Below, piece by piece: positions 3,567-19,927 of a stretch of 61,203 nucleotides of DNA. Source of the stretch: a virus; the IMG/VR virus record IMGVR_UViG_3300042564_004703, positions 1-61,203 of that record, one strand, 5' to 3'. The notes beneath the pieces were generated by a model that worked only from the letters and a program-made list of their open reading frames with translations, was not told where the DNA came from and searched no databases. The first letter of the stretch is position 1, and each line of letters opens with the position of its first letter. The translations under genes were made by a program, and so were the position numbers.

Positions 3567-4133
3567 TTAATTAATCAACTGTAATACTTCCAATTCATCA
3601 TTGCTAAATAAACTACACATTTTATCATACTCTTTAGCAACTGCTTTATATGTTTTTTTCGCCGTTCTACTGTCTGTGTCATAACCAAAACCACTGCAAA
3701 AATCTTCAAAAGTTCCCACATCATACTTTTGTAAACAAGCTAGTACATCATATAAAGTTGGTGTAATAGGTTTAGATATTGTATCACAAATTGAGTTAAA
3801 AGGTATTTTTGACAATGTTCTAACTTTAAAATATAAATCTGTATTTTTTAGGCTTAAATATTTTCTATCTAATTGAGTAATACAATTACCTTGTTTAGCG
3901 TAAAAACCGCTTTTATTTAGACTTTGCCCAAACTTAAAAGTGTATTTTCTTTGCCCTCGTTTCAAAGTAATATTATAAATATCTCTTGTTTCTTTATCGC
4001 CTTGAAAATGCAAACCATTCTCTAAAAATTCTGCTTTAAATTCAAGGTTAAAAGATTCAGCTAATATATTAACTGCTTCGTTATATTGACTGTTATCAAT
4101 TAAATTTTCTATTTGTGTGCTTAATGCTTTCAT
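3567..4133 (-). CDS. hypothetical protein
   Basis: 188 residues from the chosen ATG at 4133. A longer frame begins at 4196, but the extra 21 residues would overlap the upstream gene and come from the GC-core plus A-rich leader that precedes other genes here, so the inner start is preferred. The protein is soluble with a Lys/Arg-rich middle (LKRGQRKYTFKFGQS). No domain is recognised. Confidence 0.75.
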   Translation of the reverse strand: MKALSTQIENLIDNSQYNEAVNILAESFNLEFKAEFLENGLHFQGDKETRDIYNITLKRGQRKYTFKFGQSLNKSGFYAKQGNCITQLDRKYLSLKNTDLYFKVRTLSKIPFNSICDTISKPITPTLYDVLACLQKYDVGTFEDFCSGFGYDTDSRTAKKTYKAVAKEYDKMCSLFSNDELEVLQLIN

Positions 4134-4173
4134 AATTTTATTTTCTGTTTTTAGTTTTTTACCCGCCGTTTTG

Positions 4174-4398
4174 TTACTCCTCCTCTTCATTTTCAATTCC
4201 TAACATTTCAAAAATCCAATCCTCCTCAAACCAAAGTAAATCATTTAAAGCCGTTTCGCTTAAACCATCGGGATAGAGTTCATCGATTAAATTATCGAAG
4301 TCGTTTGCTTTGCCCTCGTTTATGATTCTCTCTTGTGTTTCTTCTGCTCCACTCCAAGCGTTAAAATTTACTAAATTTGTTTCGTTAAATGTTTTCAT
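4174..4398 (-). CDS. small acidic hypothetical protein
   Basis: 74 residues, very acidic, with a C-terminal Glu run (IENEEEE). Small acidic early proteins in phages are often DNA mimics or inhibitors of host enzymes, but nothing here proves that. It follows the 54-residue gene by 4 nt. Confidence 0.75.
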   Translation of the reverse strand: MKTFNETNLVNFNAWSGAEETQERIINEGKANDFDNLIDELYPDGLSETALNDLLWFEEDWIFEMLGIENEEEE

Positions 4399-4402
4399 GA
4401 GA

Positions 4403-4567
4403 TTATATTTTTTCTGTTATTAAAGTTCCTTTTTTGATTTGTTCCTCTCGTTGTTGCTTAACGTATTCGTTTAACAATTCCCATGCCTCAACGCCCTCTA
4501 TACTTCCAACTTCAAAATGTAATTGTTTCAAAGCGTTTTCAACTACTATAATAGATATTTTTTCCAT
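4403..4567 (-). CDS. 54-residue hypothetical protein
   Basis: Frame from ATG 4567 to TAA 4403, beginning MEKISIIVVENALKQLHFEV, followed by a charged helix (LLNEYVKQQREEQIKK). It lies 4 nt upstream of the acidic 74-residue gene, so the two are probably co-translated. Function unknown. Confidence 0.65.
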   Translation of the reverse strand: MEKISIIVVENALKQLHFEVGSIEGVEAWELLNEYVKQQREEQIKKGTLITEKI

Positions 4568-4688
4568 TGTTTTAAATTTTAATTGTTATTAACTTATACA
4601 AAGATATAATTTATTTTTTATACTTTGCTATTGTTTTTTAATTATTTTTGTTTTATCTTTGCTTTTTTCAATTTTTTTTCGCGAAATT

Positions 4689-4946
4689 TTAGTAAATAGG
4701 TAAACTTTTATAAACTTTTTTATCTATTAATCCCACTTTTTGAGGTGTAGAAGTAGTTAAGCCATTTTTTGCATTATATCTTTTAAACCCTACAAAACCG
4801 CTACTACTTTGTAATTTGTAAACCTTAAAACAATCATTTTTACAAGTTGCTTTTAAACCGTCTAAAATTCCAGTTCCTTCAAGTGTAATTATATCGCCTG
4901 TTTTAGCTACTTGTTTATATTCTTCTAATGTATTAAATATTTTCAT
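4689..4946 (-). CDS. hypothetical protein
   Basis: 85 residues, basic, beta-rich (GDIITLEGTGILDGLKATC), with two Cys spaced four apart near residues 34-38. It may be a small OB- or SH3-like fold; this is only a guess from the strand pattern. It follows the gene ending at 4958 by 11 nt. Confidence 0.75.
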   Translation of the reverse strand: MKIFNTLEEYKQVAKTGDIITLEGTGILDGLKATCKNDCFKVYKLQSSSGFVGFKRYNAKNGLTTSTPQKVGLIDKKVYKSLPIY

Positions 4947-4957
4947 TTTCTTAATTT

Positions 4958-5161
4958 TTAAAGTATTACTTCAACCCTCCCAAAATCTTTGCTTCTCAAT
5001 ACGTAGATAGTTTTAAACCCTCTTTGTACTTTTGTGTGTTTGACTTTTAAGCGTTGCATTTGCTTTTTTAGTTCGGTACTTCCTGCAAAGATTAAAGCCG
5101 TTTTTATTGCCGTTTCTTTTAGTGTGTCTATTTGTTCAAATGTGATGTTTTCTATACTCAT
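4958..5161 (-). CDS. hypothetical protein
   Basis: 67 residues; N-terminal helices, then a basic C-terminal strand pair (FKTIYVLRSKDFGRVEVIL). No domain is recognised. Its leader is the stop region of the upstream gene, CCGCCGTAA followed by an A-rich tract. Confidence 0.75.
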   Translation of the reverse strand: MSIENITFEQIDTLKETAIKTALIFAGSTELKKQMQRLKVKHTKVQRGFKTIYVLRSKDFGRVEVIL

Positions 5162-16530: not shown

Positions 16531-16667
16531 TTTTTAACGTTTCGTGGCTTTATGAAGTTGCTGATTAGCAATCACTTAACCTTTGATTAATAATTATTTT
16601 TTACAAGTACACACTTGCCTTTTGTTTATTTACCACAGCAGTAATTTTATAAAACCACCGTTGTATT
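16531..16667 (+). repeat. attC-like repeat R6 (solitary)
   Basis: Left TTTTTAAC, then GTTTCGTGGCTTTATGAAG; right arm TTTTATAAAACCACC ending GTTGTATT. The arms pair through GTGG-TTTAT-AA-TT-CTG. No cassette with matching ends lies on either side. It is inserted between two minus-strand promoters. Confidence 0.75.
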
Positions 16668-16677
16668 ATTTCTTCTG

Positions 16678-16709
16678 CAAATATACAACATTAATTTATA
16701 TTGTGCAAA
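16678..16709 (-). promoter_or_regulatory. early promoter
   Basis: Minus strand: TTTG, 20 nt, TATATTTG, followed by CAGAAG. The predicted transcript enters repeat R6 at once before reaching the gene at 16469. Confidence 0.7.
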
Positions 16710-16710
16710 T

Positions 16711-17607
16711 TTATTTTGGATTATTTTTTAATTGGTCTAGTATCATTGAAGCATTACATAAAACAGCAGATAAATGGTCTTTATAAGTTTCTTCATCTTC
16801 TTCTATTGGCTGTATCATCTTTTTTACGTGGCGAAATAAAGCCCATTCTAAAGATTTTACATCGATAGGTTTTTTCATATTACCTTTCGGGTACTTATGC
16901 TTATTAGCTGTAAATCGTTCTGCCATTAAATCAAGTATTCCTAAATTAATTTCAGAGTAATCCACTTTACCGTTTGTTTCTTTTACTCCTTCTGGTCTTA
17001 TGCTAAAAGAGTTAGGTCTATCAAATTTTCCTGTTAATGTATCTACCCAATCTGTTAGTAATAATGAAAAATCTAATGGTTCGTATGGTGGTAGTTCTTC
17101 TTTATGTATTTCACTGTCTTTTGGGAATACTAAATTTTCTTCAGTTTTATTTTCTTTTGCGGAATTTTTATTAAATTCTTCGATTATTTCATTTATTTTT
17201 TCTCTCTGTTCAGGATTTGTTTCAAGGGTAATTGTTGTAGTTGTATATTCAGGAAAATTTTTTGTTTTTGTTTCTTTTTCCGCCGAATTTGTCTGCTCCA
17301 AAACTTCATCTAAAAAATGTGGAGAAACTTTTGCTTGTGGTGGTTTATTTATACCTTCCAAATCTCCTACTATTTTTAAGTTTTCTTCTTGCTCTATAGC
17401 TTCATCTAAATACGTCATAGTTTTTCCTGCTTTATGTCTTGTACTTAATCCTGCTGTTTTGTTTTTTTCGCCGTCAAAATAATTAGAAAACGGTTGTTTA
17501 CTAACATCCCAACCAGATACAGTAGTAACCCAATCACCAGCTATGTTAAAAAACTCATCTCTTGTTACTTCTTTACCACCTACTATGTATCTAAAGTTTT
17601 CTTGCAT
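16711..17607 (-). CDS. dATP/dGTP pyrophosphohydrolase-like protein with long N-terminal extension
   Basis: 298 residues. The C-terminal ~85 residues (KVDYSEINLGILDLMAERFT, then KHKYPKGN, FRHVKKM and DHLSAVLCNASMI) match the all-alpha NTP pyrophosphohydrolase family of phage dATP/dGTP diphosphohydrolases (DUF5664), with the charged and His residues of the active helix bundle. The enzyme would trim dNTP pools. The first ~200 residues are low complexity with Lys/Glu/Thr-rich stretches, and the opening NFRYIVGGKE resembles NFRYFLDGKE of the small gene upstream, suggesting a partial duplication. Confidence 0.65.
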   Translation of the reverse strand: MQENFRYIVGGKEVTRDEFFNIAGDWVTTVSGWDVSKQPFSNYFDGEKNKTAGLSTRHKAGKTMTYLDEAIEQEENLKIVGDLEGINKPPQAKVSPHFLDEVLEQTNSAEKETKTKNFPEYTTTTITLETNPEQREKINEIIEEFNKNSAKENKTEENLVFPKDSEIHKEELPPYEPLDFSLLLTDWVDTLTGKFDRPNSFSIRPEGVKETNGKVDYSEINLGILDLMAERFTANKHKYPKGNMKKPIDVKSLEWALFRHVKKMIQPIEEDEETYKDHLSAVLCNASMILDQLKNNPK

Positions 17608-17734
17608 GTATAATTAAATTTTCACTGTTAACTTCTATCTCCACTTGCACGTTTTTAATTGCCTTTTCAAAAGCATCAAAACTATCATATTCTTTACCGT
17701 CTAAAAAATACCTAAAATTACCTTGTGTCTTCAT
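17591..17734 (-). CDS. 47-residue hypothetical protein
   Basis: Frame from ATG 17734 to TAG 17591, beginning MKTQGNFRYFLDGKEYDSFD. Its N-terminus resembles that of the gene it overlaps by 17 nt downstream (NFRY..-GKE..). Probably a small module duplicated as the N-terminus of the neighbour. Confidence 0.65.
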   Translation of the reverse strand: MKTQGNFRYFLDGKEYDSFDAFEKAIKNVQVEIEVNSENLIIHARKL

Positions 17735-17740
17735 ATTGTT

Positions 17741-18379
17741 TTATTTTAACTCCATTAATCTGTCAACTCCAATTGCAAATCCAACACCTCCTTCGTACTC
17801 TCCACCACCACAAACTTGTTTACTACTTCCTAGTTCTTCACAAGTAATTTCAAAACCTTTGCCTTCTTTATAATAATCTAATCCTCTTTTAACATCAAAA
17901 TTAAAATTAATAAATATTTCTTTAGTGTACTTTGCAATCAAGTTACTTGCTAATTGTGGTAACTTAAATCCACTTCCAATATAATCAGTTGTTGGGTTTA
18001 TAATTTCAACACCTAATTGTGTAAACTGTCTCCAACGTCCGAATTGTGGTTTTTCTCCGCGGAAACATTCAGCAACATAAAATAGCTTAATATCTTTTTT
18101 ATCTTTAAAATATGTAGAAGCTAACTTTTGCACAACAGCTGTATACTCTGGAGCTAGACATAAATCTCTACCACCTCTATCAGTTAAATTATACATCATG
18201 TTGTTATTTTCTTCTCCTACTTTTCCCGCAAAAATTTCAGAATGTTGTATAACAGGAATTTGAATTTCAACAAAACCTTCTTCTTTTAAATACTCTCGGC
18301 ATTTTTGTAAATATTCTTGTTTTTCATTCCCTAAAAGAATCCTAGTTCCTTTGTAACAAGTTTCTTTAATTGTCTCCAT
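17741..18379 (-). CDS. minimal histidyl-tRNA-synthetase-like protein
   Basis: 212 residues, about half of bacterial HisRS (about 420). Class II motifs are in order: motif 1 region GFVEIQIPVIQ (35-45); LTDRGGRDLCLAPEYT (65-80); motif 2 FRGEKPQFGRWRQFTQLGVE (106-125) with the conserved Arg; the HisA motif RGLDYY (165-170); and the HisB/motif 3 region CGGGEYEGGVGFAIGVDRL (190-208). The insertion and anticodon-binding domains are missing. It keeps residues for ATP and His binding, so it could activate histidine without normal tRNA choice, act on another substrate, or act like HisZ. It lies directly after a structured RNA locus. Confidence 0.75.
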   Translation of the reverse strand: METIKETCYKGTRILLGNEKQEYLQKCREYLKEEGFVEIQIPVIQHSEIFAGKVGEENNNMMYNLTDRGGRDLCLAPEYTAVVQKLASTYFKDKKDIKLFYVAECFRGEKPQFGRWRQFTQLGVEIINPTTDYIGSGFKLPQLASNLIAKYTKEIFINFNFDVKRGLDYYKEGKGFEITCEELGSSKQVCGGGEYEGGVGFAIGVDRLMELK

Positions 18380-18554
18380 ATAACTCTTTCAATTTATACT
18401 GCAACTCTCTATTTAACTCTATATCTCTTTCATACTCACTTTTAAATTTAGACGAATACATAGAATTTTCGTGAGAATAAAGACAGTCTAATAAATAACC
18501 ATAAAACTCTTCGTCTCTTTTAAAGAACCACCAAAGTAATTTAATTTTTTTCAT
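18366..18554 (-). CDS. small hypothetical protein upstream of HisRS-like gene
   Basis: 62 residues, basic start (MKKIKLLWWFFKRDEEFYGY) with many aromatic residues, then a charged helix. Overlaps the HisRS-like gene by 14 nt, so the two are co-translated. It follows the structured RNA region directly. Function unknown. Confidence 0.7.
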   Translation of the reverse strand: MKKIKLLWWFFKRDEEFYGYLLDCLYSHENSMYSSKFKSEYERDIELNRELQYKLKELYGDN

Positions 18555-18574
18555 ATTGTTTTAATTTTTAAATT

Positions 18575-19240
18575 TAAAGGCTTGACGATATTGTTCCAGT
18601 AGAACCTCACACTTAGCTTATATCCAGATACTTCCGCTAAAAAGCACAGAAGCGATAAGCACCTTAAAAAGAGATTTGGACGTGGACTCAAAGTTCCTTT
18701 ACCTCTTCGGTATCTCTACTAACATTGCGTTGTTAGACCTATCTTTCACGAGTGTGTAAAACTCTAAAGACTCTCCCTCTGCTAGTTACACCTTCAAGGG
18801 ACTGGTTGTTAGTGTGGTAGGGTTTGCACCTACAATGGTCTATCAGTTCTTTCTTTTTGACGGGCGATATAAAGTCCACTTTATACCTCCACTACTACTG
18901 ATATAGCGTCTACGTCTCTTTGTTTGCACTCTACCTTTTACAATTTACCCAACCTACTTATCAGTTGGAACGCCTTTTCGCCACACACTATCCACGTTTT
19001 TTACAGAAACAATTAAACTGATATCATCTACTATTACTCATAGTATTTTGGTTTTGATATGAAACCACGTTTTAAAAGCACTCGTGCCTCGTTGTCCGCC
19101 GACAAAAAATTAAAAAAGAAACTGATATAGATTTACATCAAAAGTTTTTACAGCTCTACAGTACACTGCTCTTACTCACTTTTAATCACTATATCAACCA
19201 TTGACTGTGAACTTGGTTTTGTCTCTGTGTTTTTAATTCT
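18575..19240 (-). ncRNA. candidate large structured RNA (or very long 5' UTR)
   Basis: About 660 nt without a gene, downstream of its own promoter at 19245-19276. Many stems can be read. Domain 1 pairs 19189-19196 with 19123-19130 (TGATATAG/CTATATCA), with an inner stem 19178-19183 with 19140-19145. Domain 2 pairs 19016-19023 with 18959-18966 (AACTGATA/TATCAGTT). Domain 3 pairs 18897-18903 with 18841-18847, enclosing a 7-bp hairpin at 18868-18885. Further stems include GTAGG/CCTAC at 18817-18833 and AGAGAT/ATCTCT and GCTTAT/ATAAGC nearer the 3' end. Size and phage location recall the GOLLD and ROOL ornate RNAs, but identity is unproven. Confidence 0.55.
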
Positions 19241-19244
19241 TCTG

Positions 19245-19276
19245 CAAATATACGAAATTATTTTTAATTATCCAAA
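19245..19276 (-). promoter_or_regulatory. early promoter for the structured RNA and HisRS-like genes
   Basis: Minus strand: TTTG, 20 nt, TATATTTG, then CAGAAG. It lies in the gap right after the phoH stop, which argues that the region downstream is a separate transcript. Confidence 0.75.
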
Positions 19277-19927
19277 TTATTTTCCATAAATATAATCTAA
19301 AATTTCTCCAACTAAACCACTTCTATGATTTTCCTTTAGTTTTATCCATTTAATACCTTCTATATTTTTTGATAATTCTATTGCAAAATCTAATCCTGTA
19401 TAAGTTTCATTAGTGTCCCTCTGAGATGAATCCCCGTTAATTACTATTTTTCCAGTTGTTCCTAGTCTTGTTAATATAGCCTCCATTTCCCCTTTTGTTA
19501 AATTTTGAGCCTCTTCAACAATTAAAATATCATCAATAGTTTTACCTCTAATAAACTGTATAGGTAGCGCTTGTATTTTTCCATTTTTAACAAGCTCGTC
19601 TATTTTTAATTTATCCGTACACTTATATAAATTTTCTACAAGGGCTTCCATATAAGGATTGAATTTTTCTTTCAAATCTCCTGGTAAAAATCCTAAACTT
19701 TTTCCTACTTCAATAGCACTTCTAGCAACTAATACTTTTTCACATTGTTTTGTGTTTAGGAAATCTAATGCTGTAATTGCTCCAACTAAACTTTTTCCAG
19801 ACCCAGCTCTTCCAGTTACAATTACAATTTGATTATTTAAAATTAAAGCTTTAGCTTCTTTTTGTTCTTCATTAAGTTGTACATTATACTTAATTTCACT
19901 CTTTCTAACTCTGTTTGGTTCTTTCAT
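19277..19927 (-). CDS. phoH: PhoH-like ATPase
   Basis: 216 residues from the ATG at 19927 (a longer frame starts at 19972 inside the upstream gene). Walker A is TGRAGSGKS (about residues 38-46) and Walker B is IVEEAQN (about 136-142), with KIVINGDSSQRD further on, as in PhoH/RecD-like P-loop ATPases. Phage PhoH proteins are widespread; a nucleic-acid helicase/ATPase role is known for the wider family but the phage role is unsettled. It is near RecA and a Seg-like protein. Confidence 0.9.
   Translation of the reverse strand: MKEPNRVRKSEIKYNVQLNEEQKEAKALILNNQIVIVTGRAGSGKSLVGAITALDFLNTKQCEKVLVARSAIEVGKSLGFLPGDLKEKFNPYMEALVENLYKCTDKLKIDELVKNGKIQALPIQFIRGKTIDDILIVEEAQNLTKGEMEAILTRLGTTGKIVINGDSSQRDTNETYTGLDFAIELSKNIEGIKWIKLKENHRSGLVGEILDYIYGK

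Follow-up and report, generated by a model that had tools for sequence, protein, structure and literature searches.

A half-size, catalytic-core-only histidyl-tRNA synthetase of large phages that probably charges G-1:C73 tRNA-His through the acceptor end

Introduction

What is the substrate of a histidyl-tRNA synthetase (HisRS)-like protein that has retained only half of the usual chain length? The question is raised by a gene in a 61,203-nucleotide virus fragment (IMG/VR record IMGVR_UViG_3300042564_004703; G+C content, 30%), the whole of which is referred to here as the window. An earlier note, made from the DNA letters, had placed the gene beside a structured RNA and had regarded that RNA as a possible substrate. 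The analysis described below points instead, with a probability of about 0.7 as judged from sequence-based evidence, to an active catalytic-core-only HisRS of large phages that would charge G-1:C73 tRNA-His by its acceptor end alone.

Identification of the HisRS catalytic core

The encoded protein (hereafter mini-HisRS) matched the Pfam family tRNA-synt_His (E = 3e-20), and the top matches in a PDB sequence search were HisRSs (E ~1e-18). With the NCBIfam profiles, it fitted hisS (E = 4.5e-41) better than hisZ (E = 7e-28), the hisS score of 141.2 bits being under the curated cut-off of 286.75 bits, as is expected for a half-length protein. The AlphaFold model, predicted with alignment rows from the fetched loci, showed a pLDDT of 87; the structure ranked at the top by Foldseek was E. 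coli HisRS with histidyl-adenylate (TM ~0.8), in line with the likeness proposed in the earlier note, and catalytic-domain-only pyrrolysyl-tRNA synthetase (PylRS) appeared lower in the ranking. A class II fold like that of the model is also seen in five viral proteins of 185–222 residues in BFVD (A0A6J5M2P2, A0A141HRQ2, A0A292GIB7, A0A2I7SAH4, and K7QJG2), some of which are from named phages.

Neither tRNA genes nor Rfam RNAs were found in the window, and no match to defence-system models was obtained. On the downstream side of the gene, a 47-aa ORF (17591–17734) resembles the N-terminal start of the next, 298-aa protein (16711–17607), indicating a local duplication; the C-terminus of the 298-aa protein matches the dGTP diphosphohydrolase N-terminal family.

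Table 1. Features of the mini-HisRS locus (window coordinates)
Feature	Position	Strand	Remarks
mini-HisRS ORF	17741..18379	minus	212 aa, ATG start; HisRS class II catalytic core without insertion and anticodon-binding domains
Motif 1 region, residues 38–42 EIQIP	18254..18268	minus	P42 invariant in 32-row alignment
LAPEYT loop, residues 75–80	18140..18157	minus	Histidine-binding loop of HisRS; E78 and T80 invariant
Motif 2 and loop, residues 105–119 CFRGEKPQFGRWRQF	18023..18067	minus	R107, Q112, R115, and R117 invariant
HisA, residues 165–170 RGLDYY	17870..17887	minus	His-specific motif, strict in window protein
HisB-like GGGEYE from residue 191 (191–195 GGGEY)	17795..17809	minus	Replaces GGRYD; Y195 kept
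Motif 3, residues 198–207 GVGFAIGVDR	17759..17788	minus	Class II motif
62-aa coupled gene	18366..18554	minus	Overlaps mini-HisRS start by 14 nt
722-nt gap without long same-strand gene	18555..19276	minus	G+C 38% vs window 30%; possible non-coding RNA
Bacteroidota-type promoter, TTTG - spacer - TATATTTG	19245..19276	minus	Head of 722-nt gap

Conserved motifs and missing domains

The three class II motifs, with motif 2 of the HisRS type, and both His-specific motifs that the earlier note had recognized are present in the protein (Table 1). HisB departs somewhat from its usual form: where full-length HisRS has the core GGRYD, the window protein has GGEYE, so that the Gly pair and the Tyr are kept and the Arg and Asp are relaxed. 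Across the family of related half-size proteins, Tyr195 is conserved and the Arg is not. In a comparison of 41 distinct minis with 65 full-length HisRSs from public genomes, fifteen residues (E78, T80, R107, Q112, R115, R117, Q121, E125, R165, Y169, Y170, F176, E177, Y195, and R207) were conserved in 40–41 of the former and in all 65 of the latter; the loss of active-site residues in homologues, which the earlier note would have counted against itself, was thus not seen. In HisRS, these positions serve in the binding of ATP and histidine. Residues specific to the family are K187–Q188 and C105.

In marked contrast to the well-kept active site, the accessory parts are gone. A median of only six residues follows motif 3 in the minis, compared with 102 in full-length HisRS, and neither Pfam nor the alignment revealed a C-terminal HGTP anticodon-binding domain in the window protein, which bears out its absence as originally noted. 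To this can be added the loss of the insertion domain, the distance from motif 2 to HisA being 36 residues as against 128, and the shortening of the HisB–motif 3 loop from 14 residues to three.

Family, distribution, and selection

The mini-HisRS family comprises about 40 distinct proteins of ~180–220 residues, nearly all from phage contigs, many of which exceed 400 kb. The alignment search yielded 50 IMG/VR loci, and an annotated phage collection added minis of two metagenomic phages of 635–642 kb and of the Sinorhizobium phage Phosso, whose gene had already been annotated as a histidyl-tRNA synthetase. The best 80 public prokaryote contigs held only two minis, both from one metagenome-assembled genome; one of these is on a 51-kb contig and encodes the same protein as the mini of a viral contig (L107). 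Against full-length HisRS, the minis form a single clade (SH-aLRT, 98). The dN/dS ratio was 0.05–0.15 in nine of ten pairs, dS being saturated in the tenth. The ~40 distinct homologues and this strong purifying selection exclude a chance origin of the gene. Three minis look broken or interrupted, with open frames of 66 (L114), 152 (L100), and 149 aa (L101), and may be split by introns or insertions, or decaying.

We surveyed 14 mini-bearing records for a possible source of the missing anticodon domain. Exactly one His-type catalytic domain was present in each of them, and no second, full-length HisRS was found. The HGTP anticodon domain (PF03129) was absent from the whole record in nine, among them the two genomes of 642 and 635 kb. 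The five records that do have it carry it within ORFs of 375–665 aa, mostly together with another class II core, and these are probably other synthetases. Because most of the records checked lack the domain altogether, its supply in trans was rejected.

Several of the same huge phages also encode a second half-size class II synthetase of 237–300 aa, nearest to glycyl-tRNA synthetase (GlyRS), at L255 (W03 367.2 kb), L256 (Phosso 172.4 kb), L257, L258, L260, and L263; the two that were scanned matched NF003211 with E-values of 1e-15 and 8e-17.

The conservation described above also bears on the identity of the protein with HisZ and on a role without charging. The minis keep the catalytic and histidine-transfer residues of HisRS and fit hisS better than hisZ, and identity with HisZ was rejected. 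It is rather improbable that mini-HisRS modulates translation or stress sensing by binding or sequestering uncharged host tRNA-His, as a HisZ-like regulator, or as a decoy: HisZ does show that a paralogue of HisRS can be devoid of adenylation activity (PMC9437257), but the retained catalytic residues, the position of the hisS model well above hisZ, and the strong purifying selection argue against such a role.

tRNA-His genes in the vicinity of mini-HisRS

The survey of phages for a conserved linkage to the upstream RNA, as envisaged in the earlier note, revealed no such linkage, and tRNA-His proved to be the recurrent neighbour, which could not be noticed in the window since the 61-kb fragment holds no tRNA. 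In most loci with a tRNA cluster, a tRNA-His(GTG) gene is located at most 6 kb from the mini-HisRS gene, and in several loci the two are adjacent, the distance being 7 nt in L102, 9 nt in L110, 12 nt in L109, 13 nt in L085, 18 nt in L100, 105 nt in L113, and 276 nt in Phosso. Within 500 nt of mini-HisRS, 12 of 59 tRNAs are tRNA-His, compared with 13 of 275 farther away (Fisher p = 2.6e-4, an optimistic value because the loci are related); a within-locus rank permutation gave p = 0.065. It should be added that tRNA-rich phages often have tRNA-His regardless of mini-HisRS. In two loci closer to the window protein (L075 and L078), the contig that bears the gene has its tRNA-His in another place, no tRNA-His was found on the 32-kb contig of its nearest relative (L002), and some minis are on long contigs without a detected tRNA-His (G003, 330 kb).

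The G-1:C73 pair is present in 18 of 23 well-paired tRNA-His, and among 453 other tRNAs in one, a poor call. With so few possible targets, anticodon-blind charging of non-His tRNAs was rejected. The phage tRNA-His of L089 and L195 and the second copy of L014 lack C73 or G-1. In both L109 and L110, a G-1:C73 tRNA-His beside the gene is accompanied by a second tRNA-His without G-1 and with U72; such second copies are located at L109:6698, L110:5006, and L220:9693 (L220 being Phosso). Separately, tRNAs with a CTA anticodon, which ARAGORN or the record assigned to Pyl, were seen in Phosso (L220:27232–27307), L110, and L196, and are possible amber suppressors.

Comparison of rhizobial phages

The strongest case for charging of G-1:C73 tRNA-His by the minis is provided by Phosso, which, as judged from sequence, carries a tRNA-His identity type opposite to that of a phage with a related host. 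The Phosso tRNA-His located 276 nt from mini-HisRS is of the G-1:C73 type, and its second one, located at 429192, combines U at -1 with G1:U72 and A73. A tRNA-His on psymB of S. meliloti, the host species, has no G-1 and has U72/A73, and Shinella shows the same pattern. In the Agrobacterium phage Atu_ph07 (490 kb, with a related host), the single tRNA-His found is of the host type, and neither a HisRS nor a class II G/H/P/S/T synthetase catalytic domain was found. Some alpha-proteobacteria are known to have lost G-1 and C73, with HisRS changed accordingly, and the identity elements in Caulobacter are A73 and U72 (PMC9976931); in Caulobacter, the organism, as distinct from Sinorhizobium, in which this was measured, HisRS and tRNA-His of E. 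coli behave as an orthogonal pair (PMC3875453). Our view of the G-1-less alpha-proteobacteria rests on this review, the Caulobacter paper, and the host sequences that we read. From the host-type tRNA-His without G-1 and the orthogonality in Caulobacter, we infer that the host would fail to charge the G-1:C73 tRNA-His of Phosso, which would need the phage enzyme.

These observations also bear on whether the histidine is destined for tRNA. Transfer of activated histidine to a protein, a carrier, or a small molecule, as by other stand-alone synthetase paralogues, would be compatible with the missing anticodon domain, and paralogues with non-tRNA or tRNA-modifying roles do exist (PMC9437257). We regard it as unlikely, since the residues of the motif 2 loop that should touch tRNA (Gln112, Arg115, and Arg117) are invariant, tRNA-His often adjoins the gene, and, in the comparison of the rhizobial phages, its G-1:C73 type goes together with the gene. 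Two further roles suggested in the earlier note, formation of an adenylate for another use and interference with host tRNA-His charging, gained no support from the analysis.

The upstream gap and the coupled gene

The region upstream of the gene and of the small coupled gene was described at first as a structured RNA. A 722-nt gap headed by a promoter is indeed located there (Table 1), but its structure is unproven: the folding z-score of the whole region is 0.19, no better than that of shuffled sequences, only two of twelve 150-nt windows come near z = -2, and no Rfam match was obtained. Beyond the promoter stretch, no relatives of the putative RNA were found in phages, plasmids, or the fetched loci, and three exact 20-mers had no match in IMG/VR. 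Its assignments as a GOLLD RNA, a group I intron, and a tRNA were rejected, none of the three giving an Rfam match at relaxed thresholds (RF02032 in the case of GOLLD); in addition, nhmmer with 11 phage GOLLDs gave no hit at 18555–19276, and ARAGORN made only implausible tRNA calls, at a relaxed threshold.

The corresponding place upstream of other minis is taken by a coding gene in many loci, by a GOLLD RNA in L011, and by a group I intron in L002. The proposal that mini-HisRS acts on the RNA of the gap draws on the fact that the two are neighbours in the window and are probably transcribed together from a single promoter, and on the presence of other RNAs beside some minis, namely those of L011 and L002 and a tRNA-Cys in L009/L010. 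However, the RNA is absent from the relatives and collections searched, coding genes lie upstream of many homologues, and neither an Rfam family, a tRNA-like structure, nor a fold better than shuffled was detected. With the linkage not conserved among relatives, the RNA was rejected as the substrate, and we consider this role very improbable.

GOLLD RNA was detected in 11 of 32 mini-bearing records (W01, W02, W03, G003, G007, G018, G020–G023, and G031), in six of them above the Rfam cut-off; it adjoins the mini-HisRS gene only in L011. In L002, the upstream stretch 3830–4980 has tmRNA-like ends by eye, for which ARAGORN gave no tmRNA confirmation, and contains the group I intron at 4135–4393.

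The promoter type suggests a Bacteroidota host for the window phage, and BLAST hits of the promoter stretch in flavobacterial phages agree with this. Similar sequences occur in tRNA-rich regions of relatives. Within the window, a 51-nt promoter region is duplicated with 80% identity (16666–16716 and 19233–19283), one copy preceding the 722-nt gap.

The small coupled gene mentioned in the earlier note was found as described (Table 1). In L079, the gene that immediately precedes mini-HisRS encodes a homologue of the 62-aa protein (E = 3e-5); the candidate homologue in L081 (E = 0.8) is doubtful. The overlap of the two genes and the same placement in L079, and doubtfully in L081, might indicate that mini-HisRS needs this or another small protein as a partner subunit for tRNA binding; but no homologue was found beside the remaining minis, and the 62-aa protein has no convincing family match, leaving this arrangement with little probability.

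Proposed mechanism and significance

What the sequences show in favour of a core-only HisRS is that the active site is intact, the gene is under purifying selection, the accessory domains are missing, tRNA-His is frequently close by, most of the records checked have no anticodon domain in any other place, and Phosso and Atu_ph07 differ in carrying opposite tRNA-His identity types. Mini-HisRS would form histidyl-adenylate and then pass the histidine to G-1:C73 tRNA-His, presumably recognizing the acceptor end alone by the motif 2 loop and the HisRS core, without reading the anticodon. The loss of anticodon reading could be tolerated because histidine identity, unusually, resides mainly at the acceptor end (G-1:C73). 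This pair suffices for HisRS charging of micro- and minihelices (PMC9976931), and both histidine activation and acylation of tRNA-His are carried out by HisRS urzymes, which are smaller than mini-HisRS (PMC4082485). In principle, therefore, specificity is within reach of a HisRS core that does not read the anticodon. The cognate G-1:C73 tRNA-His of the window phage may be encoded in a part of the genome that the fragment does not cover, or the phage may use that of the host.

The enzyme and its G-1:C73 tRNA-His may constitute, in some of the phages, a private pair that is presumably beyond the reach of the host HisRS. More tentatively, at somewhat below even odds, the natural HisRS core would read nothing but the 'operational code' of the acceptor end, G-1:C73, and would form with the phage tRNA-His a host-orthogonal histidine-decoding pair that keeps phage translation going when the host histidine tRNA or synthetase is unavailable.

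Accurate in-cell charging by a synthetase core alone has so far been studied with engineered fragments, and it appears that nature has done it. With the mini-HisRS clade, one could test directly whether the acceptor stem had a code of its own in the past, and would have at hand a small HisRS/tRNA-His pair that should be orthogonal in alpha-proteobacteria at least. A phage also appears here to bring its own charging rule, different from that of the host. If the reading as an orthogonal pair is true, the half-size GlyRS-like synthetases in the same phages would make stripped-down charging a general system.

Comparison with known systems

It is already known that huge phages encode synthetases, up to 15 each, and charging of their own tRNA variants has been proposed as the role (Al-Shayeb et al. 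2020, PMC7162821); the main text of that paper describes no half-size HisRS, accessory-domain loss, or G-1:C73 tRNA-His pairing. Nor did we find literature on a half-size HisRS clade or its G-1:C73 tRNA-His pairing among the openly accessible main texts searched.

By sequence, profile, and fold, the nearest known protein is bacterial HisRS (hisS, TIGR00442; PDB 1kmm and 4rdx), which shares the fold, the class II motifs, HisA, and the ATP and histidine ligands, but has the insertion domain, the HisB–motif 3 loop, the anticodon-binding domain, and the conserved HisB arginine that the mini lacks. HisZ, the regulatory subunit of ATP phosphoribosyltransferase, is paralogous to HisRS and, like the minis, lacks its anticodon domain. 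It makes no adenylate (PMC9437257), whereas the minis retain the active site. A natural catalytic-domain-only class II synthetase is also found in PylRS without the N-terminal domain (M. alvus PylRS, PDB 6ezd), which differs from mini-HisRS in its amino acid and tRNA and in its length (~275 aa), and is not the nearest by sequence. The engineered HisRS catalytic fragment (Ncat) and the urzymes likewise consist of the HisRS core without accessory domains and are likened here by function only; they are laboratory constructs, whereas mini-HisRS occurs in nature as a family under selection and is accompanied by a tRNA.
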